DNA of 64,000 bases, from assembly GCF_003610915.1 (NCBI RefSeq), contig NZ_NSDJ01000001.1, forward strand, positions 2,418,001-2,482,000, read 5' to 3'. The notes below the pieces were generated by a model that was given only the letters and a program-made list of their open reading frames with translations, was not told where the DNA came from and made no database searches. Origin of the DNA: Rahnella variigena (GTDB taxonomy: Bacteria > Pseudomonadota > Gammaproteobacteria > Enterobacterales > Enterobacteriaceae). This document shows positions 200-54,794 of this stretch, piece by piece. Position numbers and translations under genes: made by a program. The first letter of the stretch is position 1; every line of letters starts with the position of its first letter.

Positions 200-327
200 A
201 GCGCCGTGCTGCGGGTAAATGGCTGATGTTAATCCCATGTTTTGCGTATGTTGTCACACAATGAAAATAATGCCTCATTGTTATTATCACTATGTTTCAA
301 ACTGAGTGGAAATTAGTCATCTGTCGT

Positions 328-334
328 CTATTCT
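328..334 (+). promoter_or_regulatory. Probable sigma-S -10 element of sdsR
   Basis: CTATTCT at 328-334 resembles the extended sigma-S -10 element CTATACT and sits about 7 nt before the expected 5' end of SdsR. In E. coli sdsR is strictly sigma-S dependent. No convincing -35 is visible, which is usual for such promoters. Confidence 0.5.
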
Positions 335-340
335 TTAAGT

Positions 341-445
341 TGTACGGCTTAACCGCCTGCATTAATGCCAACTTTTAGCGCACGGCTCTCTCCCAAGAGC
401 CATTTCCCTAGACCGAATATAGGAATCGTATTCGGTCTTTTTTTT
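341..445 (+). ncRNA. sdsR: SdsR (RyeB) small regulatory RNA
   Basis: The segment from CCTGCATTAATGCC through the final U-run matches E. coli SdsR/RyeB almost base for base as I recall it. It includes the GGCTCT...AGAGCC hairpin (about 385-402) and the terminator AGACCGAATA / TATTCGGTCT followed by T8. The length is about 105 nt, as in E. coli. SdsR is an Hfq-dependent, stationary-phase RNA that represses targets such as ompD, tolC and mutS. The prophage attachment core overlaps its terminator, but this copy keeps a complete hairpin and T-run. In E. coli an antisense RNA (RyeA/SraC) starts beyond the sdsR 3' end; here that region is replaced by prophage DNA. The 5' end is estimated. Confidence 0.92.
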
Positions 446-459
446 GACTGTTTTTCAAA
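428..459. repeat. attL: left prophage attachment core
   Basis: The 32-bp sequence GTATTCGGTC-T8-G, then A, then CTGTTTTTCAAA, recurs at 37376-37407 with one mismatch. It overlaps the 3' arm and T-run of the sdsR terminator, so integration leaves sdsR whole. Weaker similarity continues beyond it, and TTTTCACTTACCTTCA is identical at 495-510 and 37443-37458 with the same 67-bp offset. The whole attachment region is therefore an imperfect repeat of about 83 bp. The exact crossover point cannot be read from the sequence. Confidence 0.85.
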
Positions 460-513
460 ACAATCACTTATAGTAAAAACAATAACTTAGGCTGTTTTCA
501 CTTACCTTCAATG

Positions 514-1569
514 TTACTCATTTGGATTCTCCATCGCCATTTTATCGCCACTGATTTGAGCCAGCGGATTCAGGTGGATAGCGTCTTCCAGGTGATCCGG
601 GGCAAAGTGCGCGTATCGCATAGTGACCCGGATATCTGAGTGCCCGAGGATGCGCTGCAGCACGATGATGTTGCCACCGGCCATCATAAAGTGACTGGCG
701 AAGGTATGGCGTAGGACGTGCGTCATCTGACCTTCCGGCAGTTCGATGCCGGCCAGCCTGATCACCCGATAAAACTGCTTATAGCAGGGTGAGAAGGGAG
801 TGCCTTTACGGGCGATCAATTCGTCATAGAGAGGGCGGGCGAGGGGAACGGTACGGTTCTTTTTACCTTTGGTATTGATGAAGGTGAGTTTATAGGGAGA
901 AATCTGCGAGCTTTTGATTTTTGCCGCCTCGTTCCAGCGTGCGCCGGTTGAAAGGCAGACTTTAACGATAAGCGTTAATTCGTCATTTCCATGCTGCTCA
1001 CATGCTGCCATGAGCTGCAGAATTTGTTCCTGAGTCAGCCATGCCATTTCACGTTCCGGCTGGTCGAACTCGCGGATGTTTTCCAGCGGGTTAGGTAACG
1101 ACCATTCCCCCAGGCGTTTCAGCTCATTGAACACCGCCCGCAGAAAAGCATGTTCACAATTCACCGTACCGGTGGAAACTTTACGGGTTGCCAGGCTGGT
1201 ACTGTAGCCGTTATCAATTTCACCTCTCAGTCGCTGATCACGATAGTGTGCCCAGTCCTTCGGTGTGATCATGCTGGCTATCGGGTCACCCATTCCCGCG
1301 CTGATAATCCTTAGTTTGCCCAGACGTCCCTTTTTATCATTCAGAGAGCAGCCGTGCAGGCTGTACCAGAGTTCGACCAGTTCGCTCAGCTTCCGCCGGT
1401 CTTCCTTCTCGCCCAGCCAAGGTTTGTTATTCGCCTGATCCATGGTGTAAGTCTCAAAGGCTAAGGCTTCACCCTTGGAATCAAACTGCCTACGGCATCG
1501 CTTACCTTCCCGCCCGTTCGGGTAACACTCACATAACCATTTACCGGTAGACAGCTTTCTCACACTCAT
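514..1569 (-). CDS. int: Phage tyrosine-recombinase integrase
   Basis: This 351-residue tyrosine recombinase would integrate and excise the prophage. The catalytic signature is readable: Arg in STGARWNEA (about residue 210), HVLRHTF (about 285), LGHSDIRVTMRY with the nucleophile Tyr near 319. The N-terminal half carries the arm-binding and core-binding domains. I chose ATG 1569 because AGGAGG lies 5 nt upstream; a GTG at 1572 is in frame but too close. The gene is transcribed towards attL. Unlike P2, where int lies beside the repressor, here int lies beside ogr and the tail genes, with attP between int and the repressor end. A LexA-box-like site lies 30 bp upstream, suggesting SOS control. 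Confidence 0.95.
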   Translation of the reverse strand: MSVRKLSTGKWLCECYPNGREGKRCRRQFDSKGEALAFETYTMDQANNKPWLGEKEDRRKLSELVELWYSLHGCSLNDKKGRLGKLRIISAGMGDPIASMITPKDWAHYRDQRLRGEIDNGYSTSLATRKVSTGTVNCEHAFLRAVFNELKRLGEWSLPNPLENIREFDQPEREMAWLTQEQILQLMAACEQHGNDELTLIVKVCLSTGARWNEAAKIKSSQISPYKLTFINTKGKKNRTVPLARPLYDELIARKGTPFSPCYKQFYRVIRLAGIELPEGQMTHVLRHTFASHFMMAGGNIIVLQRILGHSDIRVTMRYAHFAPDHLEDAIHLNPLAQISGDKMAMENPNE

Positions 1570-1600
1570 CACATCCTCCTTTTTGAGAATATGAATTTTA

Positions 1601-1616
1601 CTGTATATAAAACCAG
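1601..1616. promoter_or_regulatory. LexA (SOS) box upstream of int
   Basis: CTGTATATAAAACCAG fits the LexA consensus CTG-N10-CAG with an AT-rich centre, and the flanking TA/TG bases also fit. It lies between divergent int (start 1569) and the secreted-protein gene (start 1777), close enough to int to overlap its promoter. It could tie integrase expression to DNA damage. Position and orientation favour int, but control of the rightward gene is not excluded. Confidence 0.65.
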
Positions 1617-1776
1617 TGTAAATGTTTGATTTATTCAGTCGTATACATGCATAGTCAGCACATAGACAGTTTGTCTAAGCAAGTAACTTTTGGAATGGGA
1701 TCAGGAGAAACGGTGAAATTTTGATTTCAGATTGTTAAGATTGCTCTTAACAGTTTGCTCTCACTATAAGGACTTA

Positions 1777-27055: not shown

Positions 27056-29311
27056 CTAATCGTCATAAAATTCCTGCCAGTCCATAAGAGGGGGATGATG
27101 GATCACAACATCACCAAAACTCATTTTGGCTCCCCTGGTTAACGCTTCCAGCTCCCATCTTTGAGCTTTGATATCGTATTTAAGCAATTCTTGTTCAATC
27201 TGAGGCAATCGCGCCCGTTCTTCAGGCGTTAATCTTGCTGATGGGGCAACATCGCGACCCTTTGTTGGGTCAAAACTTCGCTGCGCCTTGCTGACTCTCG
27301 GTGTTTCCTCCCTTAAACGCACCACAATCGCCCTCACGGCGGCTGTGTCTGTCCAGTCAATAACTCGCAGGTTGTCAGAATTAGACGTTGTAAGGTCGCT
27401 CCCAGTCTTGCTATCGCGCCTATTTGCAGCCTGTTTCTTTCCACCTAACCCACAGTTATTGACAGGACTCCGAGGCGCGCCGTGGGCGCTTTTTGAGGTC
27501 AAAACCTCAACGTCAACGGCGGAAGAAACGATGCGCCATTGAGTTGTACGGGTTTCATAAACGCGGGAGTCGCCGAGGTGAGGCGCGAAAATACCCACAA
27601 CCTTTTTCACTTCTTCATCGTATGCGTTCAGCTCGTCAGCTACGCGGCGGGCTACGCGCACAGTCTGATCGTCGCGAGGCACATTTGCGCCGCCCTGGGC
27701 TGACATGTACGCCATAAAATCACCGGCATCAGCAGCAGCACGGACAGCTTCCACTTCTTCGTCAAAGGTTTCAGTCAGACTGATGGAACGGATGCGGCGG
27801 CACTCACGGTATGAACCCATGGTAGGCAGGCCGATAGGATGAAATTGAGGGATCCGCCAGGTAGCAGCCCAGGCGGTGACAGCAGCAGCGGAGTCCGTCA
27901 GCAACTCGCCGGTTTCGTGGTCGCGCTCGCCTTCCAGTGCATAACCGTCGATGTTTTTTGCGATGTATTTGGCGATGTAGCCAGCCGCGCCTCCACGGTT
28001 CAGGTGCTTACAGTCAAACCGGTTTTTAGCTGCGCCGCGTTCATCACCGTCTTCTTTCATGGCATATTTGCGCATGATATCGATCACCCGCTGACGCATG
28101 GCGGGCTTGGTGAATAACATCATGTGCCAGTGCGGGGTCGCGTCGTGGTGAGGCTCAACAACGCGCATCCCGTAAACGGACAGGCCGCTATCTTTGAACG
28201 CGGTGCGCATTTTGCTCCAGATCCCGCACAGATAACGCTGCGCATCTTTTGGGGTATAGGCTTCTTTGTCCCAGGCGTGATTTCGCTGAACGCGTTTTTT
28301 ATCACCCTTGCCCACCATGCGGGTCGGGTGATATTTGGAAGGCGTGGTGATGGTCAGAAACATCCCGACGTCGCCATTTGCAGCGGCATATTTTTCGGTG
28401 CCGGCGATCGTACTCATTAACTCCATGCGGCGGATTTCAGGGTTTGAAATACTCGCCATCACTTTGTCGATCAGACTGAAACGCTCGCCGGTTTCGATGT
28501 TTTCCAGGTAGCAGCTTTTCAGATAGTCGAGATTCGACAGACGGCGCGCACGTACTTCACGGATAGCCTGCTTACTGGCATACGGGGAGGCGTCACGGTT
28601 CACCTTGCCGATGGCGATCAGCAAGGATTCACGCCAGCGTGTGCGCTGGCCTTTAAACTGGCGTAACCACCAATCCGGATTAACCAGGCGCGACATGGAG
28701 GCGATAGCGGAAACGGCATCCAGCTTGCCTTTGCAAAATCTTGTCCAGTATATCGGGGTGACATTGAAAGCCTGTGCCATACCTGCGATTTCGCTGTACA
28801 GCTCGCACTGGATATCATCCTCAAAAAGAATCGAATTATCCCCGTTGTATTGAGCAAGCAGCTGATAACAACGATCTTCAAAGATTTCTTTGAGTTGTCC
28901 GGCAATGTCCTGCGCGAACCGCCGCAGCGGTTTATCGCTCATGCTCGGCAGGCCGTGATAAGTGTCTGCCTGAGACATGAATTTCATGGAAGCTTTAACA
29001 TTCATCGCATAAGCGGCATTGACCGCTTCGACGCGGGGAAGGATGCTGCGACCAAGGGTATATACCAGATATTTATTGGCAGCGTGGATACCCTGGGTTT
29101 TCAGCAGATACGCATGACGGCCTGTGAAAATTTCCCGCAGGTCGGTAGAGAGGTTTTTTACTCTGATTAAAACAGCTTGCCCCTGATCATATTCATCACG
29201 GGTAAGCGGTCTTTCCAGCCCAGAAACGGCCTGGCGTGGTTTGTTCCAGGGAAACGCCCAAGCTTCGGGCGTTTTAATCTGTGGAGTGAAGCGACTTAAA
29301 CTCACTCGCAC
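27056..29311 (-). CDS. A: Replication initiation endonuclease A (HUH)
   Basis: This 751-residue rolling-circle initiator (P2 gpA about 761) nicks the origin and stays bound to the 5' end. The HUH motif is PHWHMMLF (about residue 394) and the two catalytic tyrosines are in YIAKYIAK (about 445). The start is GTG 29311, overlapping the end of the PAPS-reductase-like gene. In P2 the origin lies within A; I could not locate the nick site. It is the last gene of the early operon. Confidence 0.95.
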   Translation of the reverse strand: MRVSLSRFTPQIKTPEAWAFPWNKPRQAVSGLERPLTRDEYDQGQAVLIRVKNLSTDLREIFTGRHAYLLKTQGIHAANKYLVYTLGRSILPRVEAVNAAYAMNVKASMKFMSQADTYHGLPSMSDKPLRRFAQDIAGQLKEIFEDRCYQLLAQYNGDNSILFEDDIQCELYSEIAGMAQAFNVTPIYWTRFCKGKLDAVSAIASMSRLVNPDWWLRQFKGQRTRWRESLLIAIGKVNRDASPYASKQAIREVRARRLSNLDYLKSCYLENIETGERFSLIDKVMASISNPEIRRMELMSTIAGTEKYAAANGDVGMFLTITTPSKYHPTRMVGKGDKKRVQRNHAWDKEAYTPKDAQRYLCGIWSKMRTAFKDSGLSVYGMRVVEPHHDATPHWHMMLFTKPAMRQRVIDIMRKYAMKEDGDERGAAKNRFDCKHLNRGGAAGYIAKYIAKNIDGYALEGERDHETGELLTDSAAAVTAWAATWRIPQFHPIGLPTMGSYRECRRIRSISLTETFDEEVEAVRAAADAGDFMAYMSAQGGANVPRDDQTVRVARRVADELNAYDEEVKKVVGIFAPHLGDSRVYETRTTQWRIVSSAVDVEVLTSKSAHGAPRSPVNNCGLGGKKQAANRRDSKTGSDLTTSNSDNLRVIDWTDTAAVRAIVVRLREETPRVSKAQRSFDPTKGRDVAPSARLTPEERARLPQIEQELLKYDIKAQRWELEALTRGAKMSFGDVVIHHPPLMDWQEFYDD

Positions 29312-30309
29312 ACACCGGCATAAACGCTGTTACAGAGAGTTTGGTCAGTTGCACACAGCAGCAAATCAAATTGATTCCCGCCACGAGTTGTCAAAGCCCA
29401 ATCTTTATAGGTATGAATACCATGCGATTTTAGACTGACATCAGTGCCGTTCTTTGTTGCCTTTTTAGGATCGTGTCCAGCATGAAAAAATACTGCATTT
29501 CCTCTGCGTGAACAGGCTGCGACAATCTCCTCCCATTCTGAAAGACGCTTCATTTGTTCAGGCCAGCGTAGGAAAATCTGAGCCAACTCAGCTTTAACAA
29601 CATTCACGCATGGCATGCAACCAACCCGATTGCAGCCCTGTTGATAAAGTGGATTGGGTTTTATTCCGTGTCGCTTTGCCAGGGCAAAGACATCATCATG
29701 CGTCCAGTTAAGGATCGGGCGATAAATATTCAGTCCTTTACCCAGGTCAAAACCAGATTCCCATTCAGCTAATGAAGCACGCTCCGGGGACTCCTGAGCA
29801 CGAACCCCCTGCCATAAAACGACTTCGCCAAATTGAGTGAGTAATGGGTTAACAAACTGGTCTCGCACAGGGTCATGTTTAAGTTCAATTGAACAAAAAC
29901 GCGCTTTTGATGAAGGAAAACGCCCCTTCCACATGCACAGGTCTAAGAACGGATTGCCCGTTGGATGAAGCGTTTTTAGTGCAGTGTCGATTATTTTTTT
30001 GGCCTGTTCAAAAGTAAATCCGCATTCCTCAGTAAGAGATACAGGCCATTTTTCAGAAATAAACTTTCTCTTTTGAGAAATGCGATCGGCAAAATTAGCT
30101 TTGACTCTTTTCACCGTTCCCAGCTTTCCCTCCAGGTAAGATAAATAATCCAGAGTTTGCGGATGCTCATGACCAGTATCTGCAAAGACAGCCGTATACA
30201 ACACACCAGCTTCACGAGCCAACAGCCACTGAGCCAGCGAATCTTTCCCGCCTGAAATAGTAATTGCGTTCATTGCTTCCGCATTAAAACAGCGGTTATC
30301 AATTACCAT
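29302..30309 (-). CDS. PAPS reductase / PP-loop ATPase family protein
   Basis: This 335-residue protein carries the PP-loop motif SGGKDS near residue 20 and a Cys cluster (CNRVGCMPCVN, about residues 218-228) that could bind an Fe-S cluster or zinc. Such proteins activate a substrate with ATP (sulfate, tRNA bases, or DNA sulfur in DndC-like enzymes). ATG 30309 overlaps the preceding mini-gene stop as TGATG and follows GGTGG. It sits in the early operon between the TraR-like gene and A. Relatives occur in enterobacterial prophages; the substrate is unknown. DNA modification, anti-restriction or sulfur metabolism are all possible. Confidence 0.75.
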   Translation of the reverse strand: MVIDNRCFNAEAMNAITISGGKDSLAQWLLAREAGVLYTAVFADTGHEHPQTLDYLSYLEGKLGTVKRVKANFADRISQKRKFISEKWPVSLTEECGFTFEQAKKIIDTALKTLHPTGNPFLDLCMWKGRFPSSKARFCSIELKHDPVRDQFVNPLLTQFGEVVLWQGVRAQESPERASLAEWESGFDLGKGLNIYRPILNWTHDDVFALAKRHGIKPNPLYQQGCNRVGCMPCVNVVKAELAQIFLRWPEQMKRLSEWEEIVAACSRRGNAVFFHAGHDPKKATKNGTDVSLKSHGIHTYKDWALTTRGGNQFDLLLCATDQTLCNSVYAGVCE

Positions 30310-30392
30310 CACATGCCACCTTTAATATCAGAGAAGAAATAGCGGGCTGCGTTCACGCCAAGGAGAAGAAGAACTATTGAGAAATAGATCAT
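30309..30392 (-). CDS. 27-residue membrane mini-protein
   Basis: A 27-codon gene (MIYFSIVLLLLGVNAARYFF...) encodes one membrane-spanning helix. Its ATG 30392 overlaps the TraR-like stop as ATGA, and its TGA overlaps the next ATG as TGATG. A GGAGA RBS lies 5 nt upstream. The perfect coupling on both sides argues that it is translated. Function unknown. Confidence 0.6.
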   Translation of the reverse strand: MIYFSIVLLLLGVNAARYFFSDIKGGM

Positions 30393-32513: not shown

Positions 32514-33380
32514 ATGCCTGAAACTAAAGACAGTGCTGCGCATATCGTTGAACGTCTTTCCTCCTCTTATGGGGTTACTTCTCAACGAGCTTTAGCCAGC
32601 TGTCTGGATGTTCCTTCAAATAATGTTAGTGCCTGGGTTCAACGCAAGAGTGTTCCAGGCAATGCAATTATCAAATGTGCATTGGACACAGGGGCTGACT
32701 TAAAATGGTTAGTTACCGGTGAGTTTGCATTTTCAAAAAATGAATGCCATAAAATCACAAAAAGAGTCACTTCATCTTCTGGTCACGCTCTTCTGCAGAA
32801 AATGCTTTCGTCTGGCGGCCGAGCTGTTTTGAATAGAATTATTGAAGCCTATGGTTTCAAGACGCAAAAAGAACTTGGTGAGCATTTAAACATTTCATCA
32901 GGTACGATCAGTACGTGGGTCAGAAGAGAATATTTTCCTGGCGACGTAGTGATTACCTGCGCATTAGATACCGGTGCCTCGCTTGAATGGTTGGCTACAG
33001 GCGAGATAGGCATAGCCCCTCAAGAGGAAACCGTCGCCGCAGGAATACCGATGATCAGTAAGAAAATACTTCTGGCCGGAAAACTTGATGATGATGGTTT
33101 TTGCTATATTGATGAGTCGTTTATCCCGGATGGCGTGAACCTCAATAATTTGAACTTTGTGCGTAGTGGCAAGTCATCTTGGCTGATTGAAATGGGGGTT
33201 AATGAGTTATCCAATGGATCTTGGTTGCTAGATATTGATGGAACATTGGACGTCTATGCAGTCTCCCGTAGACCAGGCAACAAATTACGTATTGTTGGTC
33301 ATGACGGTGAGTTTGAATGTTCAGTCAATGAAGTGATAGCAAAAGGTTTTGTGGTGGTAATTTTGAAAAATGCATTATAG
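32514..33380 (+). CDS. CI-type repressor with duplicated DNA-binding domain
   Basis: This 288-residue repressor belongs to the 186 CI family but has two N-terminal helix-turn-helix domains. Residues 10-70 and 104-164 align without gaps and are identical at 27 of 61 positions by eye, sharing blocks such as CALDTGA and the final TGE. The C-terminal domain (about 185-288) resembles 186 CI, which forms large oligomers. The 186 protein is about 192 residues with one such domain. The extra domain may let one chain bind two operators. There is no LexA-like Ala-Gly cleavage site that I can identify, so induction probably uses an antirepressor. The start is ATG 32514 after GGTGG. Confidence 0.88.
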   Translation: MPETKDSAAHIVERLSSSYGVTSQRALASCLDVPSNNVSAWVQRKSVPGNAIIKCALDTGADLKWLVTGEFAFSKNECHKITKRVTSSSGHALLQKMLSSGGRAVLNRIIEAYGFKTQKELGEHLNISSGTISTWVRREYFPGDVVITCALDTGASLEWLATGEIGIAPQEETVAAGIPMISKKILLAGKLDDDGFCYIDESFIPDGVNLNNLNFVRSGKSSWLIEMGVNELSNGSWLLDIDGTLDVYAVSRRPGNKLRIVGHDGEFECSVNEVIAKGFVVVILKNAL

Positions 33381-33509: not shown

Positions 33510-34247
33510 TTAAACTGCTAAATACCAATCAATCGTAGAGTGGAACTCATTTCTGTTTATTGAGGACAATAATTCTTGTCTAAGTTGAAGTGTTATTCTT
33601 TCTAAAGCGTCTGCATCCTCCACATCATTAACTTCACTTTCAATTTCTTCCCTTAGTTTATCAATTATAGTCTTTCTAAATTCACATAATCTGTCACAGT
33701 CAAGATTTAACTCATTAATAGTTGATTGAGCTTTATTCCTCATATTTTCAGGGCAATTCGTACTAACAGAAATATTCCCATCTTCATTAAAGGAAAAAAA
33801 AGTTTTATCGACAGGTAAATCTAATAGGGGATTTAAAATGACATCGTCTAGTATTTTGTTAGCTTTCGGCGCATCGCAGCTGTGATTATGCTTCCCAAAA
33901 GACTTATTGCTATAACTTCTTGCCGTCTGCTGAGTTCCTCCATGGCAGCAGCCTAGTAAATTATTCCAATCAAGGGAATAATTGTGACGATTGTCATCCC
34001 CACAATTTTCAGGATGAAAGTGTTCTACTCTGAAATCATTAGTAAATGCATCAGTCGGCCATTTTAGTGTTATCTCACAATAAGCACAAATGCCCTTTTG
34101 GTCTGTATATATTTCATCATAAATAGCATTCAATTCTTCTGCTGATACTTCATTCCTGAAGTCATCTTTCCATTTTGCCTCAGGATGAGTACGTAAGTAG
34201 CTAGACAAAATGTCATTGCTATTATTATTTTTTCTGAACCCTCTCAA
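33510..34247 (-). CDS. ptuB: Retron Ec78-type effector HNH endonuclease PtuB
   Basis: This 245-residue HNH nuclease has CAYC, then VEHFHPENCGDDNRHNYSLDWNNLLGCC, giving the zinc-binding cysteines and the HNH histidines. It is the nuclease half of the Septu-type PtuAB effector. Its start overlaps the ptuA stop by 4 nt (ATGA). In the Ec78 (Eco7) system, disturbance of the retron DNA by phage releases PtuAB, which disables the cell, reportedly through tRNA cleavage. The family name is from recall; the motifs are visible. Confidence 0.9.
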   Translation of the reverse strand: MRGFRKNNNSNDILSSYLRTHPEAKWKDDFRNEVSAEELNAIYDEIYTDQKGICAYCEITLKWPTDAFTNDFRVEHFHPENCGDDNRHNYSLDWNNLLGCCHGGTQQTARSYSNKSFGKHNHSCDAPKANKILDDVILNPLLDLPVDKTFFSFNEDGNISVSTNCPENMRNKAQSTINELNLDCDRLCEFRKTIIDKLREEIESEVNDVEDADALERITLQLRQELLSSINRNEFHSTIDWYLAV

Positions 34248-35878
34248 TTCTTGCCCCTCCTTTTCTTTCTGAGCGATACGTCAAGGCGTAACTTAGTTAT
34301 AACTGGGTCTCGTCCTTCTGCCCATTGACAAAGATCAGAAAAAAGCTCTTCAGCCTCCGGTGTATCCCACATATCATTCGCTACCAATTCTTTATAAGTA
34401 TTAAGTTTCTTAACAATATCAACACTTCCAGGTCTAGAAGGAACACCCTGAATTTTTTCCTGCAATACGGATGTTTCCGCACCTAGTGAGAAATAAGGTA
34501 CTTCAACATCATAATTCCCACTAGTACCAGTTTTCGATGCTGAGATTTGTCTAATACACTCATTGCTTACAGTGGTTAAAACATTAGAACTGTGTGTGCT
34601 AATTACAAACTGGATATTAGGGAATGTTTCCTGAAGTCTTAAAAGAATAGTCTGTTGCCAGATAGGATGAAGATGTAAGTCTATTTCATCAATTATAATT
34701 ACGCCATTACCGTTGAATGGATACTCACTATCATTATTTGCTGATATCAGCCTTAAAGATATATCGCAGACAAGAGAAAGCATCGTTTTTTCACCTTGGG
34801 ATAATTGCGATACGCTGATCTTACATTCGTTTTTTATGCAATAAAGTTCAATGGATTTATTATGTTCATCATACTCAAATGAGAGATTTTTTATTTCAGG
34901 CATGAATGTGTAAATTGCAGAAAATACCATGTTCACTTTTTCAGTGAATTCTAATTTTTCATTATAACTCTGTGTGGATTTTGCTCTATTTATAGTTTTG
35001 GTTAACTCATCAATTTTTTGTTTGATCGCTGGGTCTGTAGAGGTTAAATTACTCAGCACTTCTAGAGTATATATATTGTTTTCTAATTCTTTAATATGTG
35101 GATTTACTGCATAACTCATTGTTTTTCTTGTTGTTTCATTAAGTAGCCATGCCAAGAAAGCTTCAAATTTCGGTGCGGTTGAAACATTAACAGCATAGTC
35201 ATTAGAAGCAAAATCTATATTTGTATAATCTAATTGTTTTTTAAAATCGCTTTTTTTTATAACATTCCCTCTCTCAACAGAATAGAAAGCGAATACAGGG
35301 ATGTTATGACCTAAGTTTCCCAGATCCCTATATAGGTCTGCTAAGGATTTAAATTCCTGATAAAAACTATCTTGCCTTTCTTCAGCATCAGCATTTATCT
35401 TGCTGAGATTAATCGAATAAGTCGAATTTTCAAGAGTACCTTGCATTAAACTAACATCAAGTACTATCGATGCAGAATCAACCCCTTCTTTTGCTCGAAT
35501 GTCTTCAGGTTTGATAAATTGCCCATTCGCTCCATTTCCTTTGAAATTTTTTATCAACCATGTAAGGCAATTGTAAATTGACTCAAGAATACCTGTCTTA
35601 CCATATCCGTTATTCGCTGCAATGACAATGTAGTCGCTTGATAAATCTATTGATAAATCAGAAAAGCCTCTGAAATTAATTAGTCTAATGTTTTTTAATT
35701 TGATTTTTGTTGTTTTGAAATTATTAACAAGCATCTCAAAATATTTACTTGCTTCATCGAGATCTTGCTCAACGAATTTACCATTTTTGTAATATAAATA
35801 AAGTTGATACTGCGATTTCATACTGTTCTTTGAGAGCGCGTCATTCTGTAATACTTTGATTGATCTATGCTTTCTCAT
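34244..35878 (-). CDS. ptuA: Retron Ec78-type effector ATPase PtuA
   Basis: This 544-residue ABC/SMC-like ATPase opens with a Sel1-like segment (SQYQLYLYYKNGKFVEQDLDE, about residues 23-50). Walker A is NNGYGKTG (about 88-95), the signature LSQGEKTMLSL (about 361) and Walker B VIIIDEIDLHLHP (about 395), followed by the switch VISTHSSNVL. The start overlaps the reverse transcriptase end by 14 nt. PtuA binds PtuB and, in characterised retrons, the msDNA keeps them inactive. Strongly AT-rich, like the rest of the retron. Confidence 0.92.
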   Translation of the reverse strand: MRKHRSIKVLQNDALSKNSMKSQYQLYLYYKNGKFVEQDLDEASKYFEMLVNNFKTTKIKLKNIRLINFRGFSDLSIDLSSDYIVIAANNGYGKTGILESIYNCLTWLIKNFKGNGANGQFIKPEDIRAKEGVDSASIVLDVSLMQGTLENSTYSINLSKINADAEERQDSFYQEFKSLADLYRDLGNLGHNIPVFAFYSVERGNVIKKSDFKKQLDYTNIDFASNDYAVNVSTAPKFEAFLAWLLNETTRKTMSYAVNPHIKELENNIYTLEVLSNLTSTDPAIKQKIDELTKTINRAKSTQSYNEKLEFTEKVNMVFSAIYTFMPEIKNLSFEYDEHNKSIELYCIKNECKISVSQLSQGEKTMLSLVCDISLRLISANNDSEYPFNGNGVIIIDEIDLHLHPIWQQTILLRLQETFPNIQFVISTHSSNVLTTVSNECIRQISASKTGTSGNYDVEVPYFSLGAETSVLQEKIQGVPSRPGSVDIVKKLNTYKELVANDMWDTPEAEELFSDLCQWAEGRDPVITKLRLDVSLRKKRRGKN

Positions 35879-36809
35879 TTTTTTTACCTAAAATTGATTT
35901 AATTAATGACTCACCGTATTTCTTTATCATCGACTCTTTAAAAAAATTGTCGATATAAAAGGCTTGCCCTAGTTGGCCTGTCAGGGATGATAAACTTTCA
36001 TCATCAATTGCATTCTTGGATGCTTTGAATATTAATGATGACAGCATTCTTTTCCGTGACCTTCCTATAGATATCTTACCTTCATTATTTAACGTTACGC
36101 CCGTTATATGCCTATTATGTGCCTTTGAGCTAAAAATAGTTTTCGATTGCTTTATGCTTATTCTTTTGTAATATTTGTTTCTAAGTGTTTTTCTTACAAT
36201 TTCAGGAATTGAGAATAAGTGATTTTTTTTAGAAGTGGAAAATGTCATATCATCTGCATATCTGCTATACATAATGGCATTTGAATTACAGAATTCTTCT
36301 ATGGCGCAATCGAATCTGTGCATAATATAATTAGAAATTATGGGTGATGATGGCGCACCTACACTAAGAATTAACTTCCCATTTTTTCTCTTACTTGGAT
36401 TCCAAAAAAGGAGTCTGGTCAGAAAATACAATTCAGTATTATTTATAGATATCTCATCTATTTCTAGGCTTTTGTGGAAAACCTCAGGATTAATACTATT
36501 AAAGAAATCCTCGAAATCCATTTTTAAAATATAATCATTTTTAACATGTAATAGGGCATTAGACCTGATGTCCTTACCTTTTTGATACGCCATAGCTTTT
36601 TCATGGACTGGAAGAATTTTTTCCAACATTTCCACTGTAAATCTTTGCAGCTCTTTAATTTCTTTTGATGGTTGCGCGATTACTCTAAATCCGACACTTC
36701 TTTTGGGGATTTTATATACCTTATACATACGCGGGGCTTGGTCGATGAGTCGAATCAGCGCTTGTATGTTTTTTCCGGTTTTATTTGATAAAAATTCAAC
36801 TATCTTCAT
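35865..36809 (-). CDS. Retron reverse transcriptase (Ec78 type)
   Basis: This 314-residue reverse transcriptase has the catalytic YADD (YSRYADDMTFSTS), the retron-specific NAxxH (NALLH), the first catalytic Asp in LKMDFEDFFNSI, and ITG in place of the usual VTG near the thumb. Its length is typical of Ec78-like retrons (about 311). It would copy the upstream msr-msd RNA into branched msDNA. A terminator hairpin lies between the RNA gene and this gene, so some transcripts must read through. The RBS is weak. Confidence 0.93.
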   Translation of the reverse strand: MKIVEFLSNKTGKNIQALIRLIDQAPRMYKVYKIPKRSVGFRVIAQPSKEIKELQRFTVEMLEKILPVHEKAMAYQKGKDIRSNALLHVKNDYILKMDFEDFFNSINPEVFHKSLEIDEISINNTELYFLTRLLFWNPSKRKNGKLILSVGAPSSPIISNYIMHRFDCAIEEFCNSNAIMYSRYADDMTFSTSKKNHLFSIPEIVRKTLRNKYYKRISIKQSKTIFSSKAHNRHITGVTLNNEGKISIGRSRKRMLSSLIFKASKNAIDDESLSSLTGQLGQAFYIDNFFKESMIKKYGESLIKSILGKKNEKA

Positions 36810-36820
36810 GGTTTTACTCG

Positions 36821-36845
36821 TAAAAAAGGGAGAGTTCCCCCTCCC
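36821..36845 (-). terminator. Terminator between retron RNA and RT gene
   Basis: The minus strand reads GGGAG, a short GC-containing loop, CTCCC, then TTTTTT, 12 bp before the RT start. It probably ends most transcripts of the retron RNA and keeps RT levels low. Confidence 0.7.
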
Positions 36846-36850
36846 TTACT

Positions 36851-37021
36851 GCCCTTTACTAGAAGCTGCGATACATCCAACATCGCATCATAAATGAACC
36901 GACCCCAAGGGAGGTGAGTTTATGATGCGATGTTGGATGTATCGCAATCATAAACCTGTTCAATAAGTTAGAGTCTGGCTAATCGCCCGACTAGACGAAA
37001 AAACGTCCAACGCTAAAGAGC
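36851..37021 (-). ncRNA. Retron msr-msd RNA
   Basis: On the minus strand the RNA starts with the a1 repeat GCTCTTTA (37014-37021), directly followed by G, the likely branching guanosine at 37013, as expected for retron AGC. Two msr hairpins follow: GACG-TTTTTT-CGTC, and AGTC...GACT. The msd is a perfect 28-bp stem (36867-36894 paired with 36919-36946) closed by a 24-nt loop. The a2 repeat TAAAGGGC (36851-36858) pairs with a1 over 8 bp with one G-U. The RT gene follows. End points are estimated from the a1/a2 pairing. Confidence 0.85.
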
Positions 37022-37352: not shown

Positions 37353-37375
37353 ATTGATTTAATTGGAATTAAATA

Positions 37376-37407
37376 GTATTCGGTCTTTTTTTTGCCTGTT
37401 TTTCAAA
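37376..37407. repeat. attR: right prophage attachment core
   Basis: Matches 428-459 with one substitution (C for A at position 20). Only the 3' arm and T-run of the sdsR terminator are present, not the rest of sdsR, so the host gene stayed with attL. The identity TTTTCACTTACCTTCA at 37443-37458 extends the similarity into host-side DNA. Confidence 0.85.
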
Positions 37408-37541
37408 TCAAAAAATTGCAATCCAAACAGTCAATTAGCCGATTTTCACTTACCTTCAGTATCCCTAATTTAGACTTTCTCTCACCATTGTAGCTATGAT
37501 GCTTTCATACTCTATTTGCATGACCTGACAGGGCGAACCCT

Positions 37542-52163: not shown

Positions 52164-54794
52164 TTAATTTCTCGGGATTGCCGTTCCCCATTTCTGCCAG
52201 TCTTTTGGTGCTTCAGGATTGAGCAGGAAATGATTACCGTTGGCGGCTTTCGGCGCCAGTGGCGTGGTTGGCGGCGTCGCAAAGGCGATACCTCCGCGAA
52301 TAAATTGCTGGAATGTGCCGCTTTTGAACACGCCACCGGTCAGACCGAATTGCAGGTCGTAGCCAGAGGCCAGCCAGAACACGGAGTTTTCCCGCACCAG
52401 ATATTGATATTTTTTACTGATCCGAAGCGTCACATTCACGCGGTCCGCCATGGCGCCCAGATAGAAGCCAGATACGGTACCGACTTCAATTCCGCGGAAC
52501 AGCACCGGCGTGCCGATTTGTAATGAACCGACTTCGGCGGCATCGACCACGATACCCAGACCATCCGTGTAGCGCGAGTCGGTGATGGTGGAGTCCTGCA
52601 AATCAAAGTTGCGCGCTGGCGCGCCTTTGCCTGCTTCTACGTTAATGTAGGGCTGGAGAAGCGTATCGAGATTGCTGACGCCACCGGCCGAAATTTCCGG
52701 TGAAACGATTGAGAACCGGGTTCCGCGGCGGGCAAAGTTTTCAACATATTCCGGATACAACACGGCTTTGGCGGAAACCTGATTCAGTTGCGGATCCAGT
52801 TTCAGCGACTCCACCTGACCGATGGTGATGCCCAGATAACGAATAGGCATGCCGGCGGAAAGCTTACTGGCATCATAAGTATTCAGCGTTATCTGGCTGC
52901 CAACTGCGCGTGCCGAAGTTTCTGAATCATACAGAACACGCTTCGCCCCTTTGCTGGCGGTGACGCCATCAAGATTATCGAAGCTGATAGCGCCTTTAAG
53001 CGCGCGATCCAGCGGTGAGGCCTGAACGGTCAGCCCGTTGCCGTTGAGCTGCACTTTTGCGCCACCTTCTGCCCAGAAAATCGTCTTCTCTGTCAGCAGG
53101 TTGCGATATTGCGGCTGAATATATACATCAACTTCAAATTCATTGGCTTTAGGACGGACATTGACTATCTGGCCTACCTGGAACTTCCGGTAAAGCACGA
53201 CTGAACCTGTCTGAACATCAGGCAGGCTTTTAGCTGTCAGTGTTAGCGTGGCGCCCGGTTGCTCGCCCTGAATGCCTTCGGCAGCTTTTTCGGCATTACT
53301 GTAAAGCGGATATTTTTGTGCAGGTGCGCCTTTGGTGCCTGGAATAATACGCACACCACCATCGACCCATTCCTGAGCGCTGGCACCAAGGACTTCCATA
53401 CCATCGACACCCAGTTTCACATCAACCCGGCTGTTGACCACAAACTTGCTGTCTTTATGCAGCAAGTTTTTATATTCCGGCTTGATAGCAACATTAAACA
53501 CAATGCCTTCATCTGTTAGCGTCCGGTCAATAATTGTACCGACGTTGAGGCCGTAAAGTTTAATGGGCTGTCCCGCATCAATACCGTAACTCTGCGGTGC
53601 AATCAGCTGAACTTTGAGTATGTCAGGGTTCTGCAACAATCGCTGATTACTGTCGAGCACCACAAAATGCTTTTGCGGCTCACCGTCGCCGGGGATCAGT
53701 TCCAGCGTATTACCGGTTAGCAACTGGCTGAGATTGGCATTATTGAGGCTGATTTTCGGACTGTTCATTTCAATGCGCGTGCCGGTACGCATCATGTCGA
53801 GCACTGAAGGATCGACCGTCAGTTTACCGGTGACTTTATTATCCGGCTGTAACGTGATTTTGGTCAGCGTACCGACTTGTAAGCCCTGATACATCAGTGG
53901 TGTCTGGTCTTCGGATAGCCCGTTACCATCGGGTAAATCCAGATTGATTTCCACACCACGCTGGCTTTGCGCCAGATCCGGATAGAGCACGTATGACTGA
54001 TCGGCTTTTGCCTGTTTCCCGTCATTCGGGGAATCCATAGCGATCGCGCCATTCACCAGTGCTGCCAGACTTTCCATCTGAACTTTCGCTCCGCTCAGAC
54101 TCAAATCTGCCTTAAAGCCTGAAACGTTCCAGAAACGCGTATTTTCTTTGACCAGATTAGCAAAGCGTTTGTCGACCAGTACGTCGATGGTTACGCCTTC
54201 ATTGCCACTTTCAATATCGTAATCGTAAACCTTACCGACCGGAATTTTACGGTAATAAACCAGCGAACCGGTGTTCAGCGAACCCAGATCTTTGGCATGC
54301 AGATGGACCATCAGTTCGCCGGTATTGAGGCGGAATTTAGGCTGTGTATCGAGCGCCACAAAATGGTCTTTCTCTTTTCCCGGCCCTGGCATCATGCCGA
54401 TGTAGTTACCGCCCACCAGCGCATCAAGTCCCGAAACGCCGGCAAGTGACGCTTTCGGAGTGACCAGCCAGAACTGTGTGCCTTCACGCAGGGCGTCAGA
54501 CAAGTCACTTTTAATACTGACTTTCACCTGAATAGTGCGCAGGTCTTTCGTCAGGCTGATGGATTCCACCGTGCCAACTTCCACGCCCTGATAACGCACC
54601 GGCGTACGGCCAGCGACAATACCTGCCGCTGACTGGAAATCGATAGTCACAGTGTTCCCACGTTCCTGATAGTTGCTGTAAATCAACCATCCGGCGATCA
54701 GTAAAGCGATAAACGGCAGAAGCCAGAACGGCGAAATCCGGCGTCTGTGTTTAATACGTGCTTCAGTCGGTGTATTCGGCGTTTCCTGTTGCAT
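52164..54794 (-). CDS. letB: LetB (YebT), MCE lipid-transport tunnel protein
   Basis: This 876-residue periplasm-spanning protein is made of seven MCE domains that stack into a tunnel carrying lipids between the two membranes. A single N-terminal membrane helix ([18 protein letters not shown]) is followed by repeated MCE units such as [26 protein letters not shown], then later [20 protein letters not shown] and [22 protein letters not shown] chose ATG 54794 (MQQETP), which fits the E. coli start; an ATG two codons earlier is possible. The start overlaps letA by about 30 nt, as in E. coli. Confidence 0.95.

Follow-up and report, generated by a model that had tools for sequence, protein, structure and literature searches.

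A P2-like retron prophage in the sdsR terminator of Rahnella variigena and a possible prophage ancestry of ryeA promoters

The sdsR locus and its resident prophage

The window analysed here, a stretch of 64,000 nucleotides of Rahnella variigena (assembly GCF_003610915.1, contig NZ_NSDJ01000001.1, positions 2,418,001 to 2,482,000 of the forward strand), contains a complete gene for the small RNA SdsR, followed by a P2-like prophage whose integrase gene (int) points back at it. The features are listed below by window coordinates and strand.

303-448 (-), match to Rfam RF00101 (RyeA)
328-335 (+), -10 element of sdsR, which we take to be of the sigma-S type; it lies left of the insertion and is untouched (from the sequence)
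345-444 (+), SdsR (RyeB) small RNA, complete (Rfam RF00111, 110 bits)
410-445 (+), SdsR intrinsic terminator, restored at the left end (stem 410-438, then the T-run)
428-446 (+), attL core, 19-bp exact repeat
about 447-37394, P2-like prophage with tail, sheath, fibre, baseplate, capsid, terminase, portal, replication protein A and CI repressor genes (Pfam, PHROG)
447-513 (-), phage arm between SdsR and int, with two near-copies of AAAACAATCACTTA at 457-470 and 476-489
514-1572 (-), tyrosine integrase pointing at SdsR (PF00589, Int_N; PHROG integrase), of a family that we call IntA
1595-1622 (-), sigma-70-like site before int, TTTACA-16-TAAAAT, a consensus match only
27056-29311 (-), phage replication protein A (Phage_GPA)
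32514-33380 (+), CI-type repressor
33510-37021 (-), type I-A retron, beside attR
33510-34247 (-), retron PtuB/HNH protein
34244-35878 (-), retron PtuA-like ATPase
35865-36809 (-), retron reverse transcriptase
36955-37021 (-), retron msr RNA
37372-37492 (+), chromosomal right arm at attR, 121 bp, about 76% like the phage arm plus the 3' end of int (about 424-544)
37376-37394 (+), attR core, second copy of the 19-bp repeat, with only the 3' terminator arm and T-run

The first-pass annotation had placed the att core of the prophage in the 3' arm and T-run of the SdsR terminator, and the 19-bp repeat at 428-446 and 37376-37394, of which a search of the whole window found neither a third nor a reverse copy, agrees with that placement. 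The attL core spans the final 17 nt of SdsR, and beyond one mismatch 12 further bases match between the two ends. The full terminator stem is present at the left copy, and the right copy lacks the 5' arm. The annotation had also called for attB to be read from an uninfected relative, and such a site was found in another Rahnella genome (L064, in genome G001), where the chromosome downstream of sdsR is unoccupied and the right flank starts directly at sdsR. When joined at the core, the two flanks of the window gave a single 1846-bp alignment to this empty site, with 85% identity and 11 gaps, none of them at the junction, which fits the proposed one. The 100 nt of SdsR are identical in the window and in L064 and the terminator stem and T-run are intact, as expected from the earlier claim that the left copy rebuilds both. 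Taken together, the repeat, the empty-site alignment, the identity of SdsR and the presence of a tyrosine integrase exclude a chance match and point to a genuine attachment site. At the sequence level, it is thus confirmed that the prophage sits in the sdsR terminator, with its att core in the last bases of sdsR and SdsR restored.

The P2-type structural, replication and repressor genes are present in the prophage, and so are the msr RNA, reverse transcriptase, ATPase and HNH protein that mark a type I-A retron, presumably of the Ec78/Ec83 kind. Named integrase sequences 94-99% identical to that of the window are all from Rahnella. The near-copies of AAAACAATCACTTA in the phage arm are possibly integrase arm sites. 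Sigma-70-like sites such as that preceding int were no commoner in the window scan than in shuffled sequences. In the replication region, a PAPS-reductase-like protein (29302-30312) weakly resembles SspD/DndC of phosphorothioation defence systems.

Since the phage arm and the displaced right arm are related to each other, integration would in part swap like for like, and the right arm is probably the scar of an earlier IntA element, which made part of the present attB. Partial IntA int ends adjoin sdsR in four surveyed sites (L075, L211, L223 and L113); at the empty site L064, BLAST detected no likeness to the int arm past about 15 bp. The other 13 Rahnella genomes, the window's included, have sdsR and the right flank separated by about 36-38 kb (five genomes), about 89 kb (G013) or roughly 1-9 kb (four), or on different contigs (three). 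The interval of about 89 kb in G013 (G013:C22 40477-131309) contains extra att-like copies at 54056 and 89702 and probably consists of several tandem elements. Another arrangement was seen in L068 and L073 (genomes G005 and G010), where, about 70-3080 bp past sdsR, two copies of the last int codons (about 316-378 of the open frame) flank an insert of ~1.65 kb, and one nearly full int remains further in.

Integrases and ryeA-type promoters at sdsR sites

The occupancy of the site was surveyed in 154 sdsR copies, namely the window, 13 other Rahnella sites and 140 from other members of the family, these last being the best-scoring from 251 genomes with a match, so that the survey favours well-conserved sdsR; the Escherichia coli site (L031) brings the total to 155 in the later counts. 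Integrase frames of 180 aa or more, with the near end no further than 600 bp from sdsR, were found at 23 of the 154 sites, 9 of them IntA and 14 belonging to a second family, IntB, called an integrase by its sequence likeness to an E. coli relative and that relative's annotation. All but one of these frames are at least 349 aa long, the exception being an IntB of 243 aa (L148), and in all 23 sites int points toward sdsR. L068 and L073 each hold an extra IntA beyond the duplicated int end, which raises the IntA total to 11 in the promoter grouping given below. In a tblastn search with a single IntB query, fragments of the 3' end of IntB were found adjoining sdsR at 18 additional sites, none of them starting before codon 227 of 361. 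As judged from these sequences, the sdsR terminator is shown to be a hot spot for at least two integrase families, with int facing sdsR in both. In several IntB elements (L065, L111, L179, L234 and others), a second att-core-like copy was observed just before int, 40-90 bp past sdsR. Within E. coli, 235 of 5375 genomes lack a continuous stretch from sdsR to pphA; not all of these are prophages, and one that was examined is an IS insertion, in which the IS30-family element ISApl1 lies between sdsR and pphA and adjoins the ryeA promoter region (L063, strain 17MR471).

In E. coli, the strand opposite sdsR encodes the antisense RNA RyeA, which counteracts SdsR. The minus-strand match to RF00101 means that an RNA complementary to SdsR could be encoded in the window, but this match follows from SdsR itself and is therefore no demonstration of a ryeA promoter. 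When the 130 bp past sdsR were scored for generic sigma-70 promoters, both window arms gave values within those of shuffles, and so did the known E. coli promoter; the scoring, being blind to the latter, was replaced by two conserved classes of extended -10 element, type I (TGNTATGGT) and type II (TGNTATAA[GCA]), scored 40-110 bp past sdsR. The type I element was present in 42 of the 155 sites, against 2 of 1550 shuffles and none of 2727 segments further away, and the type II element in 43 (7 of 1550 shuffles; 9 of 2727 further segments). By group, a promoter of either type was found at 9 of 14 IntB, 0 of 11 IntA, 0 of 14 Rahnella and 76 of 124 other sites, some Rahnella sites being counted also as IntA or IntB. 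The type I promoter is located in the last codons of int, so that in the prophages concerned it coincides with the int end (codons for ...YLDARGAEYVMV-stop and variants), and the type II promoter in the arm between int and sdsR. The type I -10 hexamer, TATGGT, lies 45 bp past sdsR in E. coli (L031), where it is the hexamer replaced in a ryeA -10 mutant, as judged by comparing L031 with the primers given in the portion of PMC6610125 that was available. The activity of the promoters at the phage ends is predicted from their sequence, transcript support coming from the literature and concerning the E. coli promoter only.

The association with sdsR also held in a search of 392 genomes for the longer pattern CTGGAC-N17-TGNTATGGT. 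Once roughly 100 matches in one conserved coding sequence unrelated to sdsR had been set aside, 47 remained (counted by eye), of which 37 lie at sdsR, 6 beside a far att core (5 at 26-65 kb and one, in genome G060, at 853 kb) and 4 elsewhere. A control with the wrong spacing (19-base gap) gave 3 matches in all; the reversed-pattern control of this 19-base-gap search matched several dozen places, so single conserved genes may inflate pattern counts.

Seven genomes, six from other members of the family and one from E. coli, have sdsR split from a resident ryeA-type promoter, the displaced copy of which is found beside the far att core, and in 6 of these 7 the element carries a ryeA-type -10 of its own, in the last int codons or in the arm. 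In the six non-E. coli genomes the displaced promoter follows the second att core at about 16-71 bp; this core is 26-65 kb distant in five of them and 853 kb distant in the sixth. Their left ends have a type I (L115, L174) or type II element (L179, L111), a type I -10 with one -35 letter changed (L146) or an altered -10 (L100). In the sixth genome (G060; L174 and L240), the 853 kb between the att ends of the sdsR prophage suggest a rearrangement through or around it. As for E. coli, 5 of 5426 genomes match a query of sdsR plus type I int across 80% or more of its length; the two that were examined both have TGTTATGGT 81 bp past sdsR. One of them (L233) has this sequence inside the int end and the resident promoter 13 kb off at the attR core, its element being short (13 kb) and apparently degraded (partial recE, IS1).

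The Rahnella sites gave a different picture. No ryeA-type extended -10 was found 40-110 bp past sdsR in any of the 14, the empty one included, and neither the left (attL) arm of the window nor its right chromosomal (attR) arm holds a type I or type II element. Scanning the window revealed no terminator on the minus strand in the stretch from int to sdsR. On the upstream side of sdsR, a search for a terminator of RyeA gave none in the window and none in E. coli either.

What would control SdsR in such a lysogen can be read in more than one way. One doubtful possibility is that transcription of int enters sdsR and substitutes for RyeA, with SdsR read-through in turn antisense to int, so that lysogeny would make SdsR control depend on int expression. 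In E. coli, transcripts are reported to read through the sdsR terminator, according to the part of PMC6610125 consulted. The lack of a terminator between int and sdsR in the scan and the promoter-like site preceding int agree with this possibility, as does int facing sdsR in 23 of 23 sites; however, orientation is fixed within each integrase family, which leaves only two independent cases, and promoter-like matches are no more frequent than in shuffles. Besides, int is usually little expressed in lysogens.

Somewhat less credit is due to the reading closest to the first-pass annotation, which had the resident ryeA promoter moved to attR, unless the phage arm supplied another, and the SdsR/RyeA balance altered by lysogeny. 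In its strict form, the Rahnella RyeA promoter would lie in the right arm, now 37 kb off, and lysogeny would remove antisense control and raise SdsR. Both parts have counterparts elsewhere, promoters being displaced to attR in seven other genomes, with elements that supply another, and the same outcome having been published for prophage PhiW104 in Salmonella (PMC7380047, in the sections to hand). Against them, neither the right arm of the window nor any of the 14 Rahnella sites contains a type I or II promoter, the sigma-70 scores of both arms are within shuffles (by a scoring also blind to the E. coli promoter), and the left and right arms are related to each other. We consider this reading unlikely, and a shift of RyeA by lysogeny in Rahnella is an unproven proposal that nothing found here supports.

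Integrase ends and a possible ancestry of ryeA promoters

A possible descent of chromosomal ryeA promoters from integrases was examined with a profile of the type I int end, built from the final 150 nt of five intact genes. It scored at least 6 bits at 76 of the 155 sites, 14 of them IntB. The 1550 shuffles reached at most 4.6 bits, and only 3 of 2727 far segments exceeded 6, all of them holding int matches. After all promoter columns had been masked, at least 6 bits were still reached by 32 sites other than the 14 IntB, against 4.3 in shuffles. The sites that lack int form a graded series of decayed int ends, and in at least three relics (L132, L173 and L229) the int frame is interrupted by a stop codon yet the promoter letters are kept. 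The extended -10 is better preserved than the matched part of int in the 17 relics closest to type I ints, which retain 138 of 153 letters of the former and 855 of 1047 of the latter (Fisher p = 0.004), a value that can serve only as a guide because the relics are mutually related, and a count that includes one relic (L182) whose row is one base out of register. Nine relics without an anchor were omitted from one of the relic alignments. Decayed int ends that retain the promoter at prophage-free sites make ryeA promoters look like prophage fossils, an origin that the sequence comparisons render well supported for about 16 sites.

For the E. coli ryeA promoter itself, these comparisons are suggestive of the same origin. 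Under the unmasked relic profile, L031 scored 16.5 bits, against 7.6 in shuffles, and exceeded every far segment but one (L217_f8), which contains an integrase match; the masked relic profile did not match it. Pairwise alignment of E. coli with int gave a score reached by 590 of 5000 shuffles when the promoter hexamers were masked, and by 4 of 5000 shuffles and none of 1545 distant segments when the -35 letters were included. A masked profile of five Escherichia-like sites matched one relic (L120) with 12.4 bits (at most 8.8 in shuffles and 6.4 in far segments); its best intact int (L144) scored 6.7 bits, not above shuffles.

An independent origin of the extended -10 in host and phage, or the capture of a host ryeA promoter into int, is the least probable of the alternatives, for although the non-promoter letters of E. 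coli fall below significance, relics in other genera keep int codons far outside the promoter (masked profile and tblastn), and the non-consensus CTGGAC and TATGGT are common to host and phage at the same spacing.

We lean, with some reserve, towards regarding the RyeA promoter, that of E. coli K-12 included, as a domesticated piece of prophage, that is, the fossil 3' end of an int or its adjoining arm, renewed or replaced by new prophages entering the sdsR terminator. It would then be an exchangeable, phage-borne control element, lost in those Rahnella lineages hit by another integrase family. No statement of an integrase or prophage origin of ryeA promoters was found in the literature searched, the coverage of which was partial, so an earlier mention is possible.

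A joint explanation of the locus and the survey, which we hold to be likely, is that the window has a P2-like retron prophage in the sdsR terminator, that elements elsewhere carry ryeA promoters and leave them as fossils, and that the Rahnella integrase family comes without one. The prophage would have entered the Rahnella chromosome when its integrase recombined the 3' half of the SdsR terminator with the same half borne by the phage, which rebuilds SdsR and the terminator on the left side, as is seen in the window. Many other Enterobacteriaceae have a ryeA-type antisense promoter 40-110 bp past sdsR, and many of the integrated elements bear one themselves. Integration of such an element would shift the resident promoter to the far side and leave sdsR facing the promoter that the element brought, an exchange visible in the sequences and presumed for activity. 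Decay of the element would leave its promoter-bearing int end as a chromosomal ryeA promoter, as strongly suggested for ~16 sites and more tentatively for E. coli. As the Rahnella integrase family has no such promoter, SdsR would be kept and antisense control would probably be absent or come from int transcription. In the usual view, prophages in RNA genes restore the gene with few other consequences; at this site, a new arrival frequently brings an exchange of the antisense promoter as well, and many enterobacteria seem to have kept that promoter from elements since decayed. If true, this would account for where RyeA, a well-studied antisense partner, came from, and a direct test of how lysogeny affects SdsR would be possible, by setting integrase families with a type I promoter, with a type II promoter and with none side by side at one site.

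Comparison with known systems

The prophage has in common with P2/186-like phages (Peduoviridae) the tail, capsid, portal, terminase, GPA and CI repressor genes. Phage 186 matches it over a short stretch (69% identity over 4% of the query), and the integrase of PSP3 is 62% like that of the window. In P2, int adjoins the repressor gene, whereas here int (514-1572) adjoins the tail and structural genes, and cI (32514-33380) and the retron lie at the other end, across attP. The retron shares with other type I-A systems the msr RNA, reverse transcriptase, PtuA-like ATPase and PtuB/HNH protein, with no notable difference observed.

The E. coli SdsR/RyeA pair, described as a small RNA toxin-antitoxin system in the available text of PMC6610125, has the same SdsR sequence, terminator and complementary strand as Rahnella, where the ryeA promoter is however unrecognisable.

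The closest precedent is PhiW104 of Salmonella DT104, whose att corresponds to the last 23 bp of ryeB, inside ryeA (PMC7380047, citing Balbontin et al. 2008; partial text). The same partial text states that lysogeny by PhiW104 alters the 5' part of ryeA, with ryeA transcription going down and ryeB up. This effect shows that a replacement borne by a phage is not necessarily equivalent. Another prophage has been named for a RyeB site (PMC10111431, from an excerpt). Like PhiW104, the window prophage has its att in the final bases of ryeB/sdsR and exchanges the ryeA side. They differ in host and phage, and in that neither window arm has a ryeA-type promoter and the published effect on expression concerns PhiW104 only. 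The insertion hot spot is already in print, and the window prophage is a further occupant, the value of which lies in being the promoter-less case.
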